From a virus: a DNA stretch of 39,890 nt. The notes under the pieces are model-generated. The model worked only from the letters and a program-made list of their open reading frames with translations. It was not told the DNA's origin and did no database searches. The stretch's first letter is position 1, and the number at the start of each line of letters is the position of its first letter. A program made the translations under genes and the position numbers. The stretch is taken from IMG/VR virus record IMGVR_UViG_3300042988_001023, positions 1 through 39,890 of that record. One strand, 5' to 3'. This document shows, in pieces, positions 1 through 39,890 of this stretch.

Positions 1-121
1 CGGAATGAGCAGGCAAAGCTACGTTTATTTCATTAAGCCTGTCGGCCTTCCTGGGCCAATCAAGATTGGCTTCTCGGTCAACACTCGCGAGCGACTTCTT
101 TCCCTTGGCGCGTGGTCGCCT
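1..121. repeat. Left-end copy of terminal repeat block A
   Basis: Bases 1-121 are identical to 39459-39579, covering the end of cro and the first 39 codons of a T5orf172-type gene. After base 121 the two copies diverge completely, then agree again at 706-832 / 39764-39890. The sequence therefore closes on itself, but with 584 bp between the two blocks at the left end and 184 bp at the right end. Confidence 0.95.
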
Positions 122-553
122 TTGAAGCTGGAAATTATCGCTGAGATTCCGGGGACATGCCAACTGGAAAAGAACATTCAAGACTGCTTGCTCAACTCGC
201 ACAGTCATCACGAATGGTTCTTCCCAACGGATGAAGTCATTTCGGTTGTCGAGGCTATCAAAGCTGGCATTCCGATTGAAGAGGCGGTCGACCTTACCAA
301 CAGAGTCGGAAGCATTCGCACTCGTGGGCTCTCTGGTTGGACGGAAAGCACAAAAAAGCGCGCGAGCTATTCGACTCGCATTCGGAATTTGCACTGGAAG
401 GGTTACAAAACTCCTCAGCAAATCGAGTCCATTCTTCGCAAGTGGGATCGTGACAGGAGCCCTAGCTCGGAAGACATAGCATTGCTGGATGTCTTCATTT
501 CGGATGGCAAGAGTTTCCTAGAAGCGAGGTCTCCAAATGAAACAGCAGCCTAG
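5..553 (+). CDS. T5orf172 / GIY-YIG-superfamily protein (full-length version)
   Basis: 182 aa. The N-terminus (YVYFIKP, PIKIGFS, RERLLSL) and the later EWFF segment fit the T5orf172 (MUG113-like) branch of the GIY-YIG nuclease fold: a short beta-hairpin with tyrosine, a lysine/glycine strand, then an Arg-containing helix. The C-terminal half (about 100-182) has a basic helix pair that could bind DNA. On the circular map it directly follows cro (ATGA overlap seen at 39463-39466), so it would be an early P_R gene. The right-end copy of the same gene is cut to 48 codons, so this gene is present in only one of the two versions of the region. Function (DNA nicking or homing) is inferred from the fold. 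Confidence 0.75.
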   Translation: MSRQSYVYFIKPVGLPGPIKIGFSVNTRERLLSLGAWSPLKLEIIAEIPGTCQLEKNIQDCLLNSHSHHEWFFPTDEVISVVEAIKAGIPIEEAVDLTNRVGSIRTRGLSGWTESTKKRASYSTRIRNLHWKGYKTPQQIESILRKWDRDRSPSSEDIALLDVFISDGKSFLEARSPNETAA

Positions 554-641
554 TGAGAAATCACACTTACTTTTCGCGGCTTTGATCTTGTTCGCGTCCA
601 TTGCTTGCGCTCAGGCCGCTTGGCTTGCGCACTATGGATGA
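537..641 (+). CDS. Small single-pass membrane or exported peptide
   Basis: 34 aa, starting ATGA-style inside the 3' end of the T5orf172 gene. A hydrophobic stretch at about residues 10-29 (LLFAALILFASIACAQAAWL) follows a polar, charged N-terminus, so it is either a signal peptide or a membrane anchor. It exists only in the left-end version of this region. No family recognised; the short overlapping start is the main support for it being translated. Confidence 0.4.
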   Translation: MKQQPSEKSHLLFAALILFASIACAQAAWLAHYG

Positions 642-750
642 CGATCCTCCTCCCCTTGTCGCGATAGCTGTCTGGACGGCTATCTGCATCGTCCTGTTTT
701 GGGCTCCGCTGCAAGCTTCGCCATCAATCCGCATCCGCCCGCATCCGTGA
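634..750 (+). CDS. Small membrane peptide with a chimeric tail
   Basis: 38 aa beginning MDDDPPPLV, then one hydrophobic span (VAIAVWTAICIVLFW). From base 706 onward the reading frame runs into DNA that belongs, in another frame, to the winged-helix gene, so the C-terminal residues (QASPSIRIRPHP) look like an accident of the junction. The natural protein probably had a different C-terminus. It overlaps the preceding membrane peptide by a few bases. Confidence 0.3.
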   Translation: MDDDPPPLVAIAVWTAICIVLFWAPLQASPSIRIRPHP

Positions 751-832
751 ACTTGTGATTGACGGGCTGGTTGAAATCATCGGGACGCGTGAAAACGAGA
801 GCGGCGTTCGGGCGAGGGTTTACGTGGCTGCG
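706..832. repeat. Left-end copy of terminal repeat block B (127 bp)
   Basis: Exact match of 127 bp to 39764-39890, which is also the last 127 bp of the window. 127 is a common largest k-mer size in short-read assemblers, so this may be an assembly-graph overlap and not a physical terminal repeat. Joining here gives a circle of 39,058 bp. Confidence 0.95.
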
Positions 833-844
833 AGGGCGAAATGA
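706..844 (+). pseudogene. 3' fragment of the winged-helix gene
   Basis: Bases 706-832 equal 39764-39890 and encode, in the right-end frame, the last part of a winged-helix protein (RIRELVIDGLVEI). In this copy the frame upstream of 706 belongs to unrelated sequence and reaches a stop at 665-667 with no ATG, GTG or TTG start between, so the gene is broken here. The frame ends at 842-844, overlapping the ATG at 841. Joining 39890 to 833 restores a complete 98 aa gene. Confidence 0.75.
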
Positions 845-1089
845 TTTTCTTTGAGGAAGAAAGCTTCGGCGCAAATATGAAGCGGATAAGGTTAGCTCTC
901 TCAGCTAACCAAAAAGATTTTGCTCACCGCCTTGGGGTCTCTCCGCAATATCTTTGCGACGTTGAACATGATAGGCGCTCCCCATCTGTTGAGTTCGTCA
1001 AGAAGGTGTGCGGCTCCATAAAAATGAGCCGCATTTCGAGGCGTGATGCTCACATTTTGGCGGCCCGCGCGCATGGGTGGGAAGTCTGA
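841..1089 (+). CDS. Helix-turn-helix (XRE/Cro-type) regulator
   Basis: 82 aa. Residues about 10-55 form a typical XRE domain: GANMKRIRLALSANQKDF, then GVSPQYLCDVE and the following RRSPSVEF, matching the five-helix lambda-repressor-like fold. The start at 841 overlaps the stop of the winged-helix gene (ATGA). It lies early in the P_R operon ahead of the nuclease and replication genes, so it probably regulates early transcription. Target unknown. Confidence 0.8.
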   Translation: MIFFEEESFGANMKRIRLALSANQKDFAHRLGVSPQYLCDVEHDRRSPSVEFVKKVCGSIKMSRISRRDAHILAARAHGWEV

Positions 1090-12422: not shown

Positions 12423-12751
12423 TGACTAATATTCCGTCAAATCTGACCCAAGACGTAAATTGGGATTACGAGACTGTCGCGGCGTCGCAGACGGCTCAAG
12501 TTCTCGGCCCGACTGGCGGCTTTGGTGATTATCTCGCTGGTTTGCTGGTTATCCCGGCAACCACGTCGCCGGGGAATGTCCTGCTGCTCGATAACGCCAC
12601 GTCAATCACCGTCTTTACCGGGGGCGCATCGTCAATCCTTAGCCTGCATCCGTTCTTTATCCCGATTGGGGCGAAGAGCCGTTCTGGCGCGTGGAAGGTA
12701 ACGACAGGCGCGGATGTCTCGGTTATGGCTATTGGGAATTTCAAAGAATGA
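12422..12751 (+). CDS. Virion-associated protein with a duplicated beta domain
   Basis: 109 aa. Almost the whole protein (DYETVAASQTAQVLGPTG, DYLAGLLVIPATTSPGNVLL, GASSILSLHPFFIP, VMAIGNF) is repeated at the C-terminus of the product of 12880-13734. It is beta-rich, and by position between portal and scaffold probably a head decoration or fibre component. TAATG coupling to the portal gene. Confidence 0.6.
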   Translation: MTNIPSNLTQDVNWDYETVAASQTAQVLGPTGGFGDYLAGLLVIPATTSPGNVLLLDNATSITVFTGGASSILSLHPFFIPIGAKSRSGAWKVTTGADVSVMAIGNFKE

Positions 12752-12879: not shown

Positions 12880-13734
12880 ATGGTCGATAACGTCGAAATA
12901 ACTGCCGGATCAGGCGTCACGGTCGCCGCTGACGACATTGCTGGCGTAATCCATCAGCGTGTGAAAATCAGCGTTGGCGCGGATGGCTCGGCAAGCGACA
13001 TGGTTGGCGGCGCTGGCGCTGTTTCGGCTGCCGTCCCGCGCATGACGCTGGCGAGCGACGATCCGGCTGTAGCGCTGCTGACGACGATTGATAGCGACAC
13101 GTCGCGTCTGACTAGCTCGGCTGGCCCTACGGCTGTCGGATCGGCGCTGTCAACTACATCGTTCATGGTAGGGGCGCGTTATAATTCGACGCCTCCGACG
13201 TTCACGGATGGCCAGGAGGGCGGGCTACAGGTCACGGCGGCGGGTCGCCTCATTACCCATGATACGGCGGCTGTTGCTGAACTGACGACGCTTTCCGGCG
13301 CTGTTTCATCGTCCCGCGTGGCTGTCAATCTAATCTCTGGACAGGCTGGCGTTGCGGCTGGTTCTGGCGCAAATGGGGCGACCGTTCCGCGTGTAACTAT
13401 CGCCACGGATGACCAGACAGCGGCAAACCTGAACAACGCCCTAAAGGGGGAATACGAGACTGTCGCCGCATCGCAGACTGCACAGGTTTTGGGCGCAACG
13501 GGCGCAACGGGGGATTATCTTGCTGGCGTCCTGATCGTTCCTGCGACGACTTCTCCCGGAAACGTGCTTATTCTCGACAATGCCACGTCGATCACGATTT
13601 TTGCTGGCGGCGCGTCGTCGGTGAGTAATCTTGTCCCATTCTTCGTCCCGCTTGGCATGACGAGCGTTTCTGGCGCGTGGAAGATCACCACGGGCGCAAA
13701 CGTCTCTTGTATCGGGATTGGGAACTTCACCTAA
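12880..13734 (+). CDS. Head decoration/fibre-like protein
   Basis: 284 aa. The N-terminal 190 residues are Ser/Thr/Ala/Val-rich beta repeats with recurring phrases (GAVSAAVPRMTLASDD, GANGATVPRVTIATDD), typical of trimeric fibre or decoration proteins. The last ~95 residues repeat the product of 12422-12751. The neighbouring structural genes place it in the virion. ATG at 12880; ends by TAATG overlap with the next gene. Confidence 0.6.
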   Translation: MVDNVEITAGSGVTVAADDIAGVIHQRVKISVGADGSASDMVGGAGAVSAAVPRMTLASDDPAVALLTTIDSDTSRLTSSAGPTAVGSALSTTSFMVGARYNSTPPTFTDGQEGGLQVTAAGRLITHDTAAVAELTTLSGAVSSSRVAVNLISGQAGVAAGSGANGATVPRVTIATDDQTAANLNNALKGEYETVAASQTAQVLGATGATGDYLAGVLIVPATTSPGNVLILDNATSITIFAGGASSVSNLVPFFVPLGMTSVSGAWKITTGANVSCIGIGNFT

Positions 13735-32321: not shown

Positions 32322-32585
32322 TCACTTTAGGGATAGGACTGCGGCTGCTTCCCCATGGCATCCAAGCCGTTTCAACTCGTTCGCCGCTTCTTCCAGCGCC
32401 TCGGCGCGGCCTGCGATGTATGCGATTTGCGGGGTTACGTCGGATTGGAAAATCTCTCCATTTTTCTCCTGCTCCCTTACCGCCGCGTCGAGGGCGACGC
32501 GCATGGCTTTTGTGTCGGTTGTGTCCATCCGCGCTTCAGCAAAGGCGTTGAGCGCTTCGTCGACAGAGTCATCAGTCCATTCCAT
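32322..32585 (-). CDS. Unknown protein, paralogue A of a tandem pair
   Basis: 87 aa from ATG 32585 (GGAAGGAAGTGAAG upstream); a GTG at 32591 is a weaker option. It shares MEWT, an AF-containing helix, the RVALDAAV segment and GRAEALEEAANELKRL with the neighbour 32602-32925, so the two arose by duplication. Helical and acidic. Function unknown. Confidence 0.6.
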   Translation of the reverse strand: MEWTDDSVDEALNAFAEARMDTTDTKAMRVALDAAVREQEKNGEIFQSDVTPQIAYIAGRAEALEEAANELKRLGCHGEAAAVLSLK

Positions 32586-32601
32586 CTTCACTTCCTTCCG
32601 G

Positions 32602-32925
32602 TCATTTTAGGTTGCGGATTTCGTCAGCGAGACCCTGGAAAACAATGTCGGTTGGCGAGCCCGGCTTTAGCGACTCTAGCTTCTTCGCCGCTTCCTCCAG
32701 CGCCTCGGCGCGGGTGCGGGATTGGAAGAGTGCCTTTAGCTTGTCATTTGGTGCGGGCGGATTGTCTATGGCGTCGAAAAACGCTTTAGTTGCCCATGGC
32801 GATAGGACAAGCCCCTGCGCCTTTACCGCCGCGTCGAGGGCAGCGCGCAATCGTTCGCGGTCGCTTTTTGACCCGGAATTAAATGCGGCAAGCGCGGCGT
32901 CTTCTGCCTTTTTCGTCCAATCCAT
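32602..32925 (-). CDS. Unknown protein, paralogue B of a tandem pair
   Basis: 107 aa from ATG 32925, with the same GGAAGGAAGTGAAG leader as paralogue A. MDWTKKAEDAALAAFNSG, RLRAALDAAVKAQG, then TRAEALEEAAKKLESLKPG match A; a middle insertion (LSPWATKAFFDAIDNPPAPN) is absent there. Helical. Function unknown. Confidence 0.6.
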   Translation of the reverse strand: MDWTKKAEDAALAAFNSGSKSDRERLRAALDAAVKAQGLVLSPWATKAFFDAIDNPPAPNDKLKALFQSRTRAEALEEAAKKLESLKPGSPTDIVFQGLADEIRNLK

Positions 32926-32951
32926 CTTCACTTCCTTCCGATAAGCGCGAC

Positions 32952-33177: not shown

Positions 33178-34233
33178 TTATTTCTTTCCTATCATCGCTA
33201 CTTCTCTGCGAAGATGGTCAGCATGTAAATGAGCGTAGTTCCTGACCACGTATTGCTCGCCGGTCCCGAGAATCTCGGCTATTTTCCGGGTGCTAACGCC
33301 CTTCTGAGCAAGCCAGCTTCCGGTTGTGTGGCGAAGGCAATAGGCGGTTACGCTCGCGTCCAAGCCAGCCAACTGGACGGCCCTAGTCAACGCTGAATGG
33401 GGCCTAATCAACGCCTCTCCGTTATATCTAACGCACGGACCCCTGCCCCCGTCCCTTTCCGCCCATCGGCGCATCAGGCGGTGCAGTTCCGGCGCGATCG
33501 GCACGGGCGGCTGGCGCTTCGTCGTCTCGCGCGTATCTGTGGCTCGGCGGTAGATAAGCCCATTGTCTAGGTCTACCCACCCGCGATGGGTCGTCCGATC
33601 CCATGACAGGCCCAGAATCGCGCCCGGCCTCGATCCCGTATAGACGCCAACCAAAATGAACCGGGCCAAGTGCCGGATACGGCGGTTCGTCAGGCATACC
33701 CAAAGCAGCCGAGCGACTTCAGAGCGCGTCAGCCAGCGGCTACGGGGCGGGCCCGGCGGCGGGGTCCATACGTCGACAACTTCCCTGTATAGCCCCGTGC
33801 GGCGGGCGTAGGTTAAGGCCGCGCCCAAGTCCTGAAGGTCACGCCGAGCGCCGCCGTCATTCCCGCGATGCTTGGCGTATTCTTGGCAGCGGCGGCGGGT
33901 AATGTCCGCGATCGAGAGGCGACCGAAAAACTCAAGCAGCCGCCCTGCTCGCTTGCGTCCAGTCACCGGGCGAGCCTGCCCCGGCACAACTTCGTCAAGG
34001 TAAATCGAGATCACGTCGGCCACAGGGATTTGATATAGGTTACGCCCCCTGGTTGTGGGGTCGTGTTTGCCGCCGAGATATTCCGCGAACACTCGCTCGG
34101 CGTCACCACGCGCGCCTTCGCCGCAGCCAGTGCTACGGTAAACTGATCCTGTGTCTCGGATGACCCAGACAGCGGATTGCTTGCCCCTTGCTGGCCTGAG
34201 CCAAAGACGCGCGCCTTTTGTTTTTCTCGGCAC
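33178..34233 (-). CDS. int: Tyrosine-family site-specific integrase
   Basis: 351 aa from a GTG at 34233 with GGAGGGAG upstream. N-terminal arm-binding part (PRKTKGARLWLRPARG, then STGCGEG), core-binding helices around PVADVISIYLDEVVPG, and a catalytic domain with Arg about 202 (VYTGSRPGAILGL), Arg-His about 301 (YCLRHTTGSWLAQ) and the nucleophile Tyr about 333 (RNYAHLHADH). It integrates and excises the prophage. Located in the early-left operon with an excisionase-like gene upstream. attP could not be seen by eye. Confidence 0.9.
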   Translation of the reverse strand: MPRKTKGARLWLRPARGKQSAVWVIRDTGSVYRSTGCGEGARGDAERVFAEYLGGKHDPTTRGRNLYQIPVADVISIYLDEVVPGQARPVTGRKRAGRLLEFFGRLSIADITRRRCQEYAKHRGNDGGARRDLQDLGAALTYARRTGLYREVVDVWTPPPGPPRSRWLTRSEVARLLWVCLTNRRIRHLARFILVGVYTGSRPGAILGLSWDRTTHRGWVDLDNGLIYRRATDTRETTKRQPPVPIAPELHRLMRRWAERDGGRGPCVRYNGEALIRPHSALTRAVQLAGLDASVTAYCLRHTTGSWLAQKGVSTRKIAEILGTGEQYVVRNYAHLHADHLRREVAMIGKK

Positions 34234-34403
34234 AACTCCCTCCATTTTTGGATTGCAGCCGGGGTCGTGACAATGCGACGCCCGAGCTTTTCCGTCTCCA
34301 GTTCGCCACGGCTGGCGGCGGCGCGCAAGGTCGCGGCTTTGACTTTGCCGCGCAGGCAAATCTCGGCGGCTTCGTCGAGGGTCATGGGAGATGCGGCGTC
34401 CAT
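34011..34403 (-). CDS. Excisionase-like HTH protein overlapping int
   Basis: 130 aa. Residues 7-55 are a MerR/Xis-type winged helix (MTLDEAAEICLRGKVKAATL, RAAASRGELETEKLGRR). The start at 34403 follows the stop of the previous gene. The remaining C-terminal half overlaps 223 bases of int in another frame and looks unstructured, so the natural protein may end near 34233 and be extended here by a frameshift or simply run on. Confidence 0.65.
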   Translation of the reverse strand: MDAASPMTLDEAAEICLRGKVKAATLRAAASRGELETEKLGRRIVTTPAAIQKWRELCREKQKARVFGSGQQGASNPLSGSSETQDQFTVALAAAKARVVTPSECSRNISAANTTPQPGGVTYIKSLWPT

Positions 34404-36568: not shown

Positions 36569-37039
36569 TTATCTTGCAAAGGTTCCATACGCCGCCTTAG
36601 CGGCTTGCTGGCGCAAGCTTTTTGCTTCCGCCAAAGTGTTTCTTATGCCGACATATCTCTGTCCGACTCGGACGACGAATTTTCCTTTGTTGTTAATGCT
36701 GACGCCAATTACCCCAGTTTTGTTTTCCGGGCGCAAACCAGTGTTAGCTTTATTCTGAGAATGCGTAGCTTCCCGCAGATTTTCCCATCTACAGTCTGAT
36801 TTATCGAGGTTGATGTGGTCAACTTGCATGCTTGGCATTTCCCCAAGCATGTATAGGAACGCTAATCTGTGGGCGTAGTAGTCCTTGCCGTAGATAGATA
36901 TGACAAGGTATCCGTCCGCATTTATGCTTCCTGCCTTCTTTCCTGGAACGACTTTGCAGCATGTCTTGGCCTTCCAAACCCAAACGCCTGTGTCTTTGTC
37001 ATAGGACAAAACTTCTTTGAGTTTTTCCTGCGCCAGCAT
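36569..37039 (-). CDS. HNH-AP2 homing-type endonuclease
   Basis: 156 aa. HNH_3-type nuclease (YDKDTGVWVWKAK, AHRLAFLYMLGEMPSMQVDH, NLREATHSQNKANT) and an AP2-like C-terminus (NKTGVIGVSINNKGKFVVRV, then TLAEAKSLRQQAAKAAYG). Related to the product of 25763-26251 but clearly diverged. It lies between the Gp157 gene and the SSB-like gene as an insertion that leaves both intact. Confidence 0.9.
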   Translation of the reverse strand: MLAQEKLKEVLSYDKDTGVWVWKAKTCCKVVPGKKAGSINADGYLVISIYGKDYYAHRLAFLYMLGEMPSMQVDHINLDKSDCRWENLREATHSQNKANTGLRPENKTGVIGVSINNKGKFVVRVGQRYVGIRNTLAEAKSLRQQAAKAAYGTFAR

Positions 37040-38634: not shown

Positions 38635-39153
38635 CTATGCGCGAGAAATTTTTACGCCTTTTGAAATCAGATATTTATGCGTTAGAGATGCTGCAAGAAT
38701 GCGGCGCGCTCGCGCAAACTCCTCAGGAGGTTCGCCGGTTAGAGGTTCTTCGGCGACTCCTCGCACGTACGCAGCAATCTCATCCGCTTCTTCAGCCGAG
38801 AACTTCATCGCCTGAAGAACACCGAGAAGAGCGGCAAACACGGCCGTGAGCGCCTCCTCCGTGTTCCGCTCCGTGATGGCCTGATTCGTTCTTTCCTTTG
38901 GCGGCTTGCCGGTTTTAAGCCAGTTCTCGGTAACGCCAAGGGCTTGAGCTAATTCGACGATAATCGTCGGCTTCTCGGAAAATCCCCGCTCTATTGAGCT
39001 GATCGTGCTGGCTGCTGTCTTGAGCCTGGGGTTTATTTTTCTGACCTGTTTGACCAGGTCCTTTTGTTCCCAGCCTTTTTCCATCCGCGCCTTTGCGACG
39101 CGGTCCCCTAATGTTTCCATCGGCCCAATCTTCTTTTGCTTCAAGGCTTTCAC
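38635..39153 (-). CDS. CI-like phage repressor (HTH, no peptidase domain)
   Basis: 172 aa from a GTG at 39153; ATG 39117 is an alternative. Residues 13-80 are an XRE domain (LGDRVAKARMEKGWEQKDLV, ASTISSIERGFSEKPTIIVE, ALGVTENWLKTG). The C-terminal half is helical (TEEALTAVFAALLGVLQAMK, AEEADEIAAYV) and lacks the LexA/CI serine-lysine peptidase, so induction would not go by simple RecA-stimulated self-cleavage. Divergent from cro, with operator candidates on both sides. Confidence 0.85.
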   Translation of the reverse strand: MKALKQKKIGPMETLGDRVAKARMEKGWEQKDLVKQVRKINPRLKTAASTISSIERGFSEKPTIIVELAQALGVTENWLKTGKPPKERTNQAITERNTEEALTAVFAALLGVLQAMKFSAEEADEIAAYVRGVAEEPLTGEPPEEFARARRILAASLTHKYLISKGVKISRA

Positions 39154-39241: not shown

Positions 39242-39466
39242 ATGGACACGACCAAACCAATCGACCTCGTTCTTTCCAAGCTTGGCGGGCAATCGCGTCT
39301 CGCGGAGATGCTCGGCAAGCGCCAGTCAACAGTCGCGTATTGGGTGAAGACGACAGGCATTCCTGCTGAGGCGGCTGTCGCTCTTGAGCGCGCGACGAAT
39401 GGCGAAATACCGCGTTGGGTGTCGCGCCCTGACCTTTGGGAAACCCCATCGGAGGCGGCGGAATGA
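39242..39466 (+). CDS. Cro/YdaS-like regulator
   Basis: 74 aa. VLSKLGGQSRLAEMLGKRQS then TVAYWVKTTGIPAEAAVALE is the YdaS/Cro-type HTH. Divergent from the repressor, first gene under P_R, so it takes the Cro role in the switch. Its stop overlaps the next ATG (ATGA at 39463). Confidence 0.8.
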   Translation: MDTTKPIDLVLSKLGGQSRLAEMLGKRQSTVAYWVKTTGIPAEAAVALERATNGEIPRWVSRPDLWETPSEAAE

Positions 39467-39579
39467 GCAGGCAAAGCTACGTTTATTTCATTAAGCCTGT
39501 CGGCCTTCCTGGGCCAATCAAGATTGGCTTCTCGGTCAACACTCGCGAGCGACTTCTTTCCCTTGGCGCGTGGTCGCCT
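39459..39579. repeat. Right-end copy of terminal repeat block A
   Basis: Identical to 1-121 and discussed there. Here the block runs into a short tail (CAAGAGGCTAAGAGGGCG) and then the winged-helix gene, instead of the full T5orf172 gene. Confidence 0.95.
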
Positions 39580-39609
39580 CAAGAGGCTAAGAGGGCGCTA
39601 AAGAAATGA
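39463..39609 (+). pseudogene. T5orf172 gene cut to 48 codons (right-end version)
   Basis: The first 39 residues equal the left-end T5orf172 protein, then QEAKRALKK and stop. The nuclease-fold core after the first two strands is missing, so it is presumably inactive. Its stop overlaps the next ATG (ATGA at 39606), which keeps translational coupling from cro to the winged-helix gene. Confidence 0.7.
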
Positions 39610-39890
39610 CCTATCCCGACACTCCCGGCTTTGTCCGCACAAGCGCAACATCCAAATCCGCCGCGACGTTCATTGAGCCGTCCGCTGGCACAGTCCGCGC
39701 ATGGGTTCTCAAGGAAATCCGCAAGGCTGGCCAGAAAGGTCTGTCATGTGAGCAGGTGGAGCGCCGCTGCAAGCTTCGCCATCAATCCGCATCCGCCCGC
39801 ATCCGTGAACTTGTGATTGACGGGCTGGTTGAAATCATCGGGACGCGTGAAAACGAGAGCGGCGTTCGGGCGAGGGTTTACGTGGCTGCG
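39606..39890 (+). CDS. Winged-helix protein, continues across the circle join
   Basis: 95 codons here; joining 39890 to 833 adds RAK and a stop, total 98 aa. After a short N-terminus (MTYPDTPGFVRTSATSKSAA), AWVLKEIRKAGQKGLSCEQV, then HQSASARIRELVIDGLVEII and a beta-wing (TRENESGVRARVYV) form a typical wHTH of the phage type. Early P_R gene, likely a regulator. Intact only in the right-end version. Confidence 0.75.
   Translation, partial: MTYPDTPGFVRTSATSKSAATFIEPSAGTVRAWVLKEIRKAGQKGLSCEQVERRCKLRHQSASARIRELVIDGLVEIIGTRENESGVRARVYVAA
39764..39890. repeat. Right-end copy of terminal repeat block B
   Basis: Exact copy of 706-832 and the last 127 bp of the window. Confidence 0.95.

Follow-up and report, generated by a model that had tools for sequence, protein, structure and literature searches.

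Structural variants in viromes have been described from long reads in gut phages, which carry about seven per genome (PMC11323893), and in a marine study in which 25 of 66 genomic islands showed alternative arrangements (PMC6487183). Putative homing endonucleases located at boundaries of genetic exchange have been reported to include T5orf172, a subfamily of GIY-YIG (PMC10448857). Here we analyzed a T5orf172-containing locus in the 39,890-base virus record IMGVR_UViG_3300042988_001023; the window considered is the whole contig. Most likely, this contig represents a single temperate phage population, mapped as a circle, in which two alleles co-occur behind the cro-like gene, each of them a separate derivative of a longer parent.

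The two ends of the contig share two exact repeats, blocks A and B (Table 1). Pairwise comparison of the ends showed identity at all 121 positions of block A and all 127 positions of block B, and the right copy of B finishes on the final base of the contig. The expectation for such exact repeats is ~1e-59 (121 bp) and ~1e-63 (127 bp), and they are not the product of chance. Between A and B lie 584 bp at the left end versus 184 bp at the right, so the spacing proposed in a sequence-only reading of this DNA holds to the base. Local alignment of the left and right inserts revealed no similarity above shuffled controls, nor did comparison of each insert with the remainder of the contig in both orientations. 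Because the alignments stay within the controls, the inserts are unrelated sequences, neither diverged nor inverted copies. The contig begins inside block A, hence the region upstream of the left allele is not in direct view and the link of this allele to cro is made through the 121-bp identity.

Table 1. Features of the variable spot and its neighbors in the window
Feature	Position	Strand	Evidence or remark
Block A, left copy (end of cro and start of T5orf172)	1..121	+	100% identity to 39459-39579
Intact T5orf172/MUG113 (GIY-YIG-type) gene, 182 aa	5..553	+	Pfam and end-to-end alignment with RHph_I1_23
Left-only segment, 584 bp, GC 0.51	122..705	+	Insert comparison
Membrane-type peptide, 34 aa, hydrophobic stretch	537..641	+	Overlaps T5orf172 end
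Membrane-type peptide, 38 aa, hydrophobic stretch	634..750	+	End fused out of frame into winged-helix DNA
Block B, left copy (706-832), plus remaining winged-helix 3' end	706..844	+	Headless and startless; stop overlaps next gene
XRE-type HTH gene, first shared gene past the variable spot	841..1089	+	Pfam HTH_3 1.1e-7
Integrase	33178-34359	-	
CI-type repressor gene	38635..39153	-	Pfam HTH_19; phrog_4 1e-12
cro-like gene (YdaS/Cro family)	39242..39466	+	Pfam YdaS 4.2e-16; P22_Cro 1.1e-6, just under its cut-off
Block A, right copy	39459..39579	+	
Broken T5orf172, 39 residues plus 9 foreign (QEAKRALKK), in frame	39463..39609	+	48-aa ORF; stop overlaps winged-helix start
Right-only segment, 184 bp, GC 0.58	39580..39763	+	
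Putative intact small winged-helix gene, 98 aa once continued at 833-844	39606..39890	+	Weak Pfam matches and homologues
Block B, right copy, exactly 127 bp	39764..39890	+	Reaches contig end

We predict that the large ORF of the left version is a member of the T5orf172/GIY-YIG-type nuclease family. It matches MUG113 (1.4e-5, 26.0 bits; cut-off 22.3) and T5orf172 (8.6e-5, 23.4 bits; cut-off 20) in Pfam, and aligns from first to last residue with a gene of Rhizobium phage RHph_I1_23. The residues VYF, K20, G22, R30, E55, and EWF are invariant among four aligned T5orf172 sequences. The nuclease domain is the only one recognized by Pfam, which reported no zinc-finger DNA-binding domain and no match over the C-terminal 100 aa. 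The fold model of the protein weakly resembles Slx1, a GIY-YIG nuclease (E 0.11; low-confidence model); the structure models obtained have low confidence (pLDDT 59 and 63) and add little. In the right version T5orf172 breaks off after residue 39 and is without the conserved E55 and the EWF motif. The possibility that the nine residues beyond the break are the native T5orf172 C-terminus was rejected, as RHph_I1_23 matches the C-terminus of the left version instead. Also rejected was a virgin-site/homing dimorphism, since the right allele retains a T5orf172 remnant.

For the intact gene of the right version, matches to MarR_2 (6.1e-5, 23.6 bits) and HTH_20 (1e-4, 22.6 bits) both fall under the Pfam cut-off of 27, so it does not qualify as a MarR-like winged-helix protein by that measure, and a fold search was uninformative. 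The winged-helix label is a putative one, taken purely from similarity: the protein matches homologues in L095 and L096 over its whole length, and its N-terminus is similar to a protein in L160, whose copy sits just before an ORF that by eye appears to be ERF-type-recombinase-like. A search of 397 genomes of one order returned two homologues. In the left version no possible start codon (ATG, GTG, or TTG) precedes block B in the same frame. About 90 bp of dead winged-helix sequence lie between the two membrane-type ORFs, which overlap each other in series, and the XRE gene. Each version comprises one intact gene and one scar. The ORFs bear out the earlier description of the left version as an intact T5orf172 gene with membrane peptides and a beheaded winged-helix gene, and of the right version as the reverse, an intact winged-helix gene with a damaged T5orf172. 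Because the left T5orf172 and the right winged helix are each intact relative to their homologues, neither version can be derived from the other by a single deletion.

Relatives indicate how the genes may have been ordered originally. In RHph_I1_23, L004, L098, L142, and L143, T5orf172 is the next gene after a cro-like gene, and in most cases the two overlap by 4 bases. In L142 and L143 a repressor-like ORF is divergent to this pair, and in L143 a 49-aa membrane-type ORF follows T5orf172, matching the placement in the left version. From these gene orders, the ancestral arrangement was likely cro followed by T5orf172 and then a membrane peptide. The winged helix is likely a further early gene, placed between the T5orf172/membrane-peptide stretch and the replication genes. 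More broadly, the pair of a cro-like gene and T5orf172/MUG113 is found in no fewer than six distinct phages, the present one among them (L091, L004, L098, L142, and L143 are listed), and T5orf172 behind cro is possibly a conserved early nuclease of the immunity region.

The supposed full parent order was found in no relative within the collections searched. Among viral contigs, a T5orf172 search returned one relative at 39% and a terminase search a best match of 75%, while a degenerate pattern search for block A and a search with the winged helix gave no match; together with a replication-gene query, these searches identified no second record of this phage. Searches of phage and plasmid DNA detected no near relative, and T5orf172 was not found in the 397 genomes of one order. 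The only match from a scan of genome contigs lies inside an unrelated ATPase-like gene and was dismissed as chance.

Beyond the features in Table 1, we identified a DnaA-like gene and a methyltransferase gene in the early region and genes for terminase, portal, coat, head-closure, and ejection proteins. This predicted gene set is that of a temperate tailed phage. We take its head module to be like that of P22-like podophages. Such phages package DNA by the headful mechanism, which results in circular maps. The presence of integrase, CI/Cro, portal, coat, and head-closure proteins thus makes the phage type compatible with a circular map. The genome also encodes a putative second homing-type nuclease, an HNH_3 endonuclease (36569-37039, minus strand, 2e-17) within a leftward operon. 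Just past the portal gene is a 300-bp direct repeat (12435-12734 versus 13421-13720, 70% identical), apparently an old partial gene duplication, and three short direct repeats (30-60 bp) with a spacing of 304-346 bp at 32380-32940 suggest a duplicated small gene.

How the two versions came to lie at opposite ends of one contig can be addressed from the behavior of assemblers. Among 20 sister IMG/VR contigs of similar size, nine have end repeats, of 127 bp (four contigs), 123 bp (three), 126 bp (one), and 114 bp (one). These lengths are assembler word lengths; common metagenome pipelines finish at k=123 or 127, and k=127 was adopted for the present contig from its sisters. In one record, IMGVR_UViG_3300026967_000003 (ends L112/L113), a 126-bp end repeat starts 20 bases in, and the ends nearly close but not cleanly. 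We simulated a de Bruijn graph at k=127 from the two circles implied by our contig, of 39,458 bp (left allele) and 39,058 bp (right allele). The graph branches at two nodes and contains three edges (438, 838, and 38,874 bp). Its path through left allele, shared part, and right allele reproduces the window to the last base at the 3' end and extends it by six bases at the 5' end. The left repeat, at 121 rather than 127 bp, is six bases short of the ideal path, a deviation of a few bases such as occurs in sister contigs, and a dead end in the graph may mark where the left allele begins. The contig shows what is expected of a bubble, with flanks of about k length (121 and 127 bp) around alternative inserts of 584 and 184 bp. 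Whichever allele is used to close the circle, the genes spanning the joins are intact: cro leads on to T5orf172, and the winged-helix gene extends to 833-844, its stop codon overlapping the start of the XRE gene.

Several other explanations have to be set against this evidence. The left segment could belong to another, related phage with at least A and B in common, making the contig chimeric and leaving the phage itself with a single version. Such an origin would accord with the contig starting inside A, where the upstream neighbor of the left allele is out of view, and with the lower GC of the left-only DNA (0.51 versus a comparison value of 0.56). However, the left allele runs through B into the single shared 38.9-kb path, B, identical over 127 bp, carries a dead 3' remnant of the same winged-helix gene, A is identical over 121 bp, and phage and viral collections, from which near-identical records may be missing, yielded no close relative; we regard a chimera as unlikely. 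Read at face value the contig is a linear genome with one version at each end, but both of its ends cut genes (cro/T5orf172 and the winged helix) whose missing parts sit at the opposite end, and at its 3' end the contig stops after exactly 127 bp of B, which leaves a genuine linear genome very improbable.

Programmed or phase-like switching of early accessory genes inside one clone, raised in the sequence-only reading, might be suspected from two alternative gene sets close to a regulator and both present in one assembly. The evidence does not support it, and we give it very little credence: on either strand, similarity of the inserts to one another and to the remaining contig stays within the level of shuffled controls, and the broken gene of each allele could not be mended from the other without a third donor. 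We detected no inverted repeats of at least 20 bp, and no reverse-complement or silent copy of the inserts elsewhere in the contig, and inversion and silent-copy models were rejected on these grounds. A mixed-sample assembly had also been suggested; this stands insofar as the end-to-end layout is probably a product of the assembler, as the fit to a k=127 graph bubble indicates, but not as an artifact of content, since both sequences are probably real nevertheless. From the form of the assembly, we infer that both alleles probably coexist in one sample and belong to the same phage. The earlier alternatives of two haplotypes or of two deletions from a longer parent are both well supported, and they combine into one account.

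In that account of two co-occurring alleles, the parent would have had the order cro, T5orf172, membrane peptides, (more), winged helix, XRE. As relatives keep cro-T5orf172, each allele appears to have arisen separately from this longer parent by deletion (or replacement). The left allele would have lost the stretch from the second membrane peptide into the winged-helix gene, and the right allele T5orf172 from codon 40 onward plus the membrane peptides. The most likely mechanism is a pair of independent illegitimate deletions, or short replacements, affecting early genes that the phage can do without; we infer simple deletion, and the parent would be needed to tell the two apart. Both may have been tolerated since neither touches cro on the upstream side or the XRE and replication genes on the downstream side, and since in the right version the genes still overlap one another without a break. 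Meeting a single bubble, a short-read de Bruijn assembler with a final k of 127 would then have ordered the circle as left allele, shared 38.9 kb, and right allele. Two versions at one spot are most likely ordinary population variation. That the spot behind cro is a recurrent hotspot of deletion or exchange through action of the T5orf172 nuclease, with nuclease-bearing and nuclease-less alleles kept by selection, seems rather improbable.

The locus illustrates how two alleles of a phage population can go unseen within a single contig, and how a circular genome can be filed as one lacking end repeats. Screening "linear" viral contigs for k-length repeats near their ends would recover complete genomes together with structural variants. 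It also marks the gene spot behind cro as a probable site of accessory early gene loss.

Compared with the variants known from long-read viromes (PMC11323893; PMC6487183), the locus is alike in having insertions, deletions, or alternative arrangements at one spot within one phage population, of the kind where short-read graph assemblies break or tangle. Unlike those variants, both alleles here lie at the two ends of one contig and are known from assembly alone. The 127-bp terminal match resembles the k-length end repeats of circular contigs, including the sister contigs, but it joins through a bubble rather than as a plain start-to-end repeat. As with putative T5orf172 homing genes (PMC10448857), a T5orf172/MUG113 gene is present at a spot where phages that are otherwise identical differ, and one of its alleles is truncated. 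In contrast to those genes, it has no zinc-finger DNA-binding domain that Pfam recognized and sits directly behind cro in several temperate phages, and, unlike the uninvaded site of a homing gene, the allele without T5orf172 keeps a 39-codon remnant.
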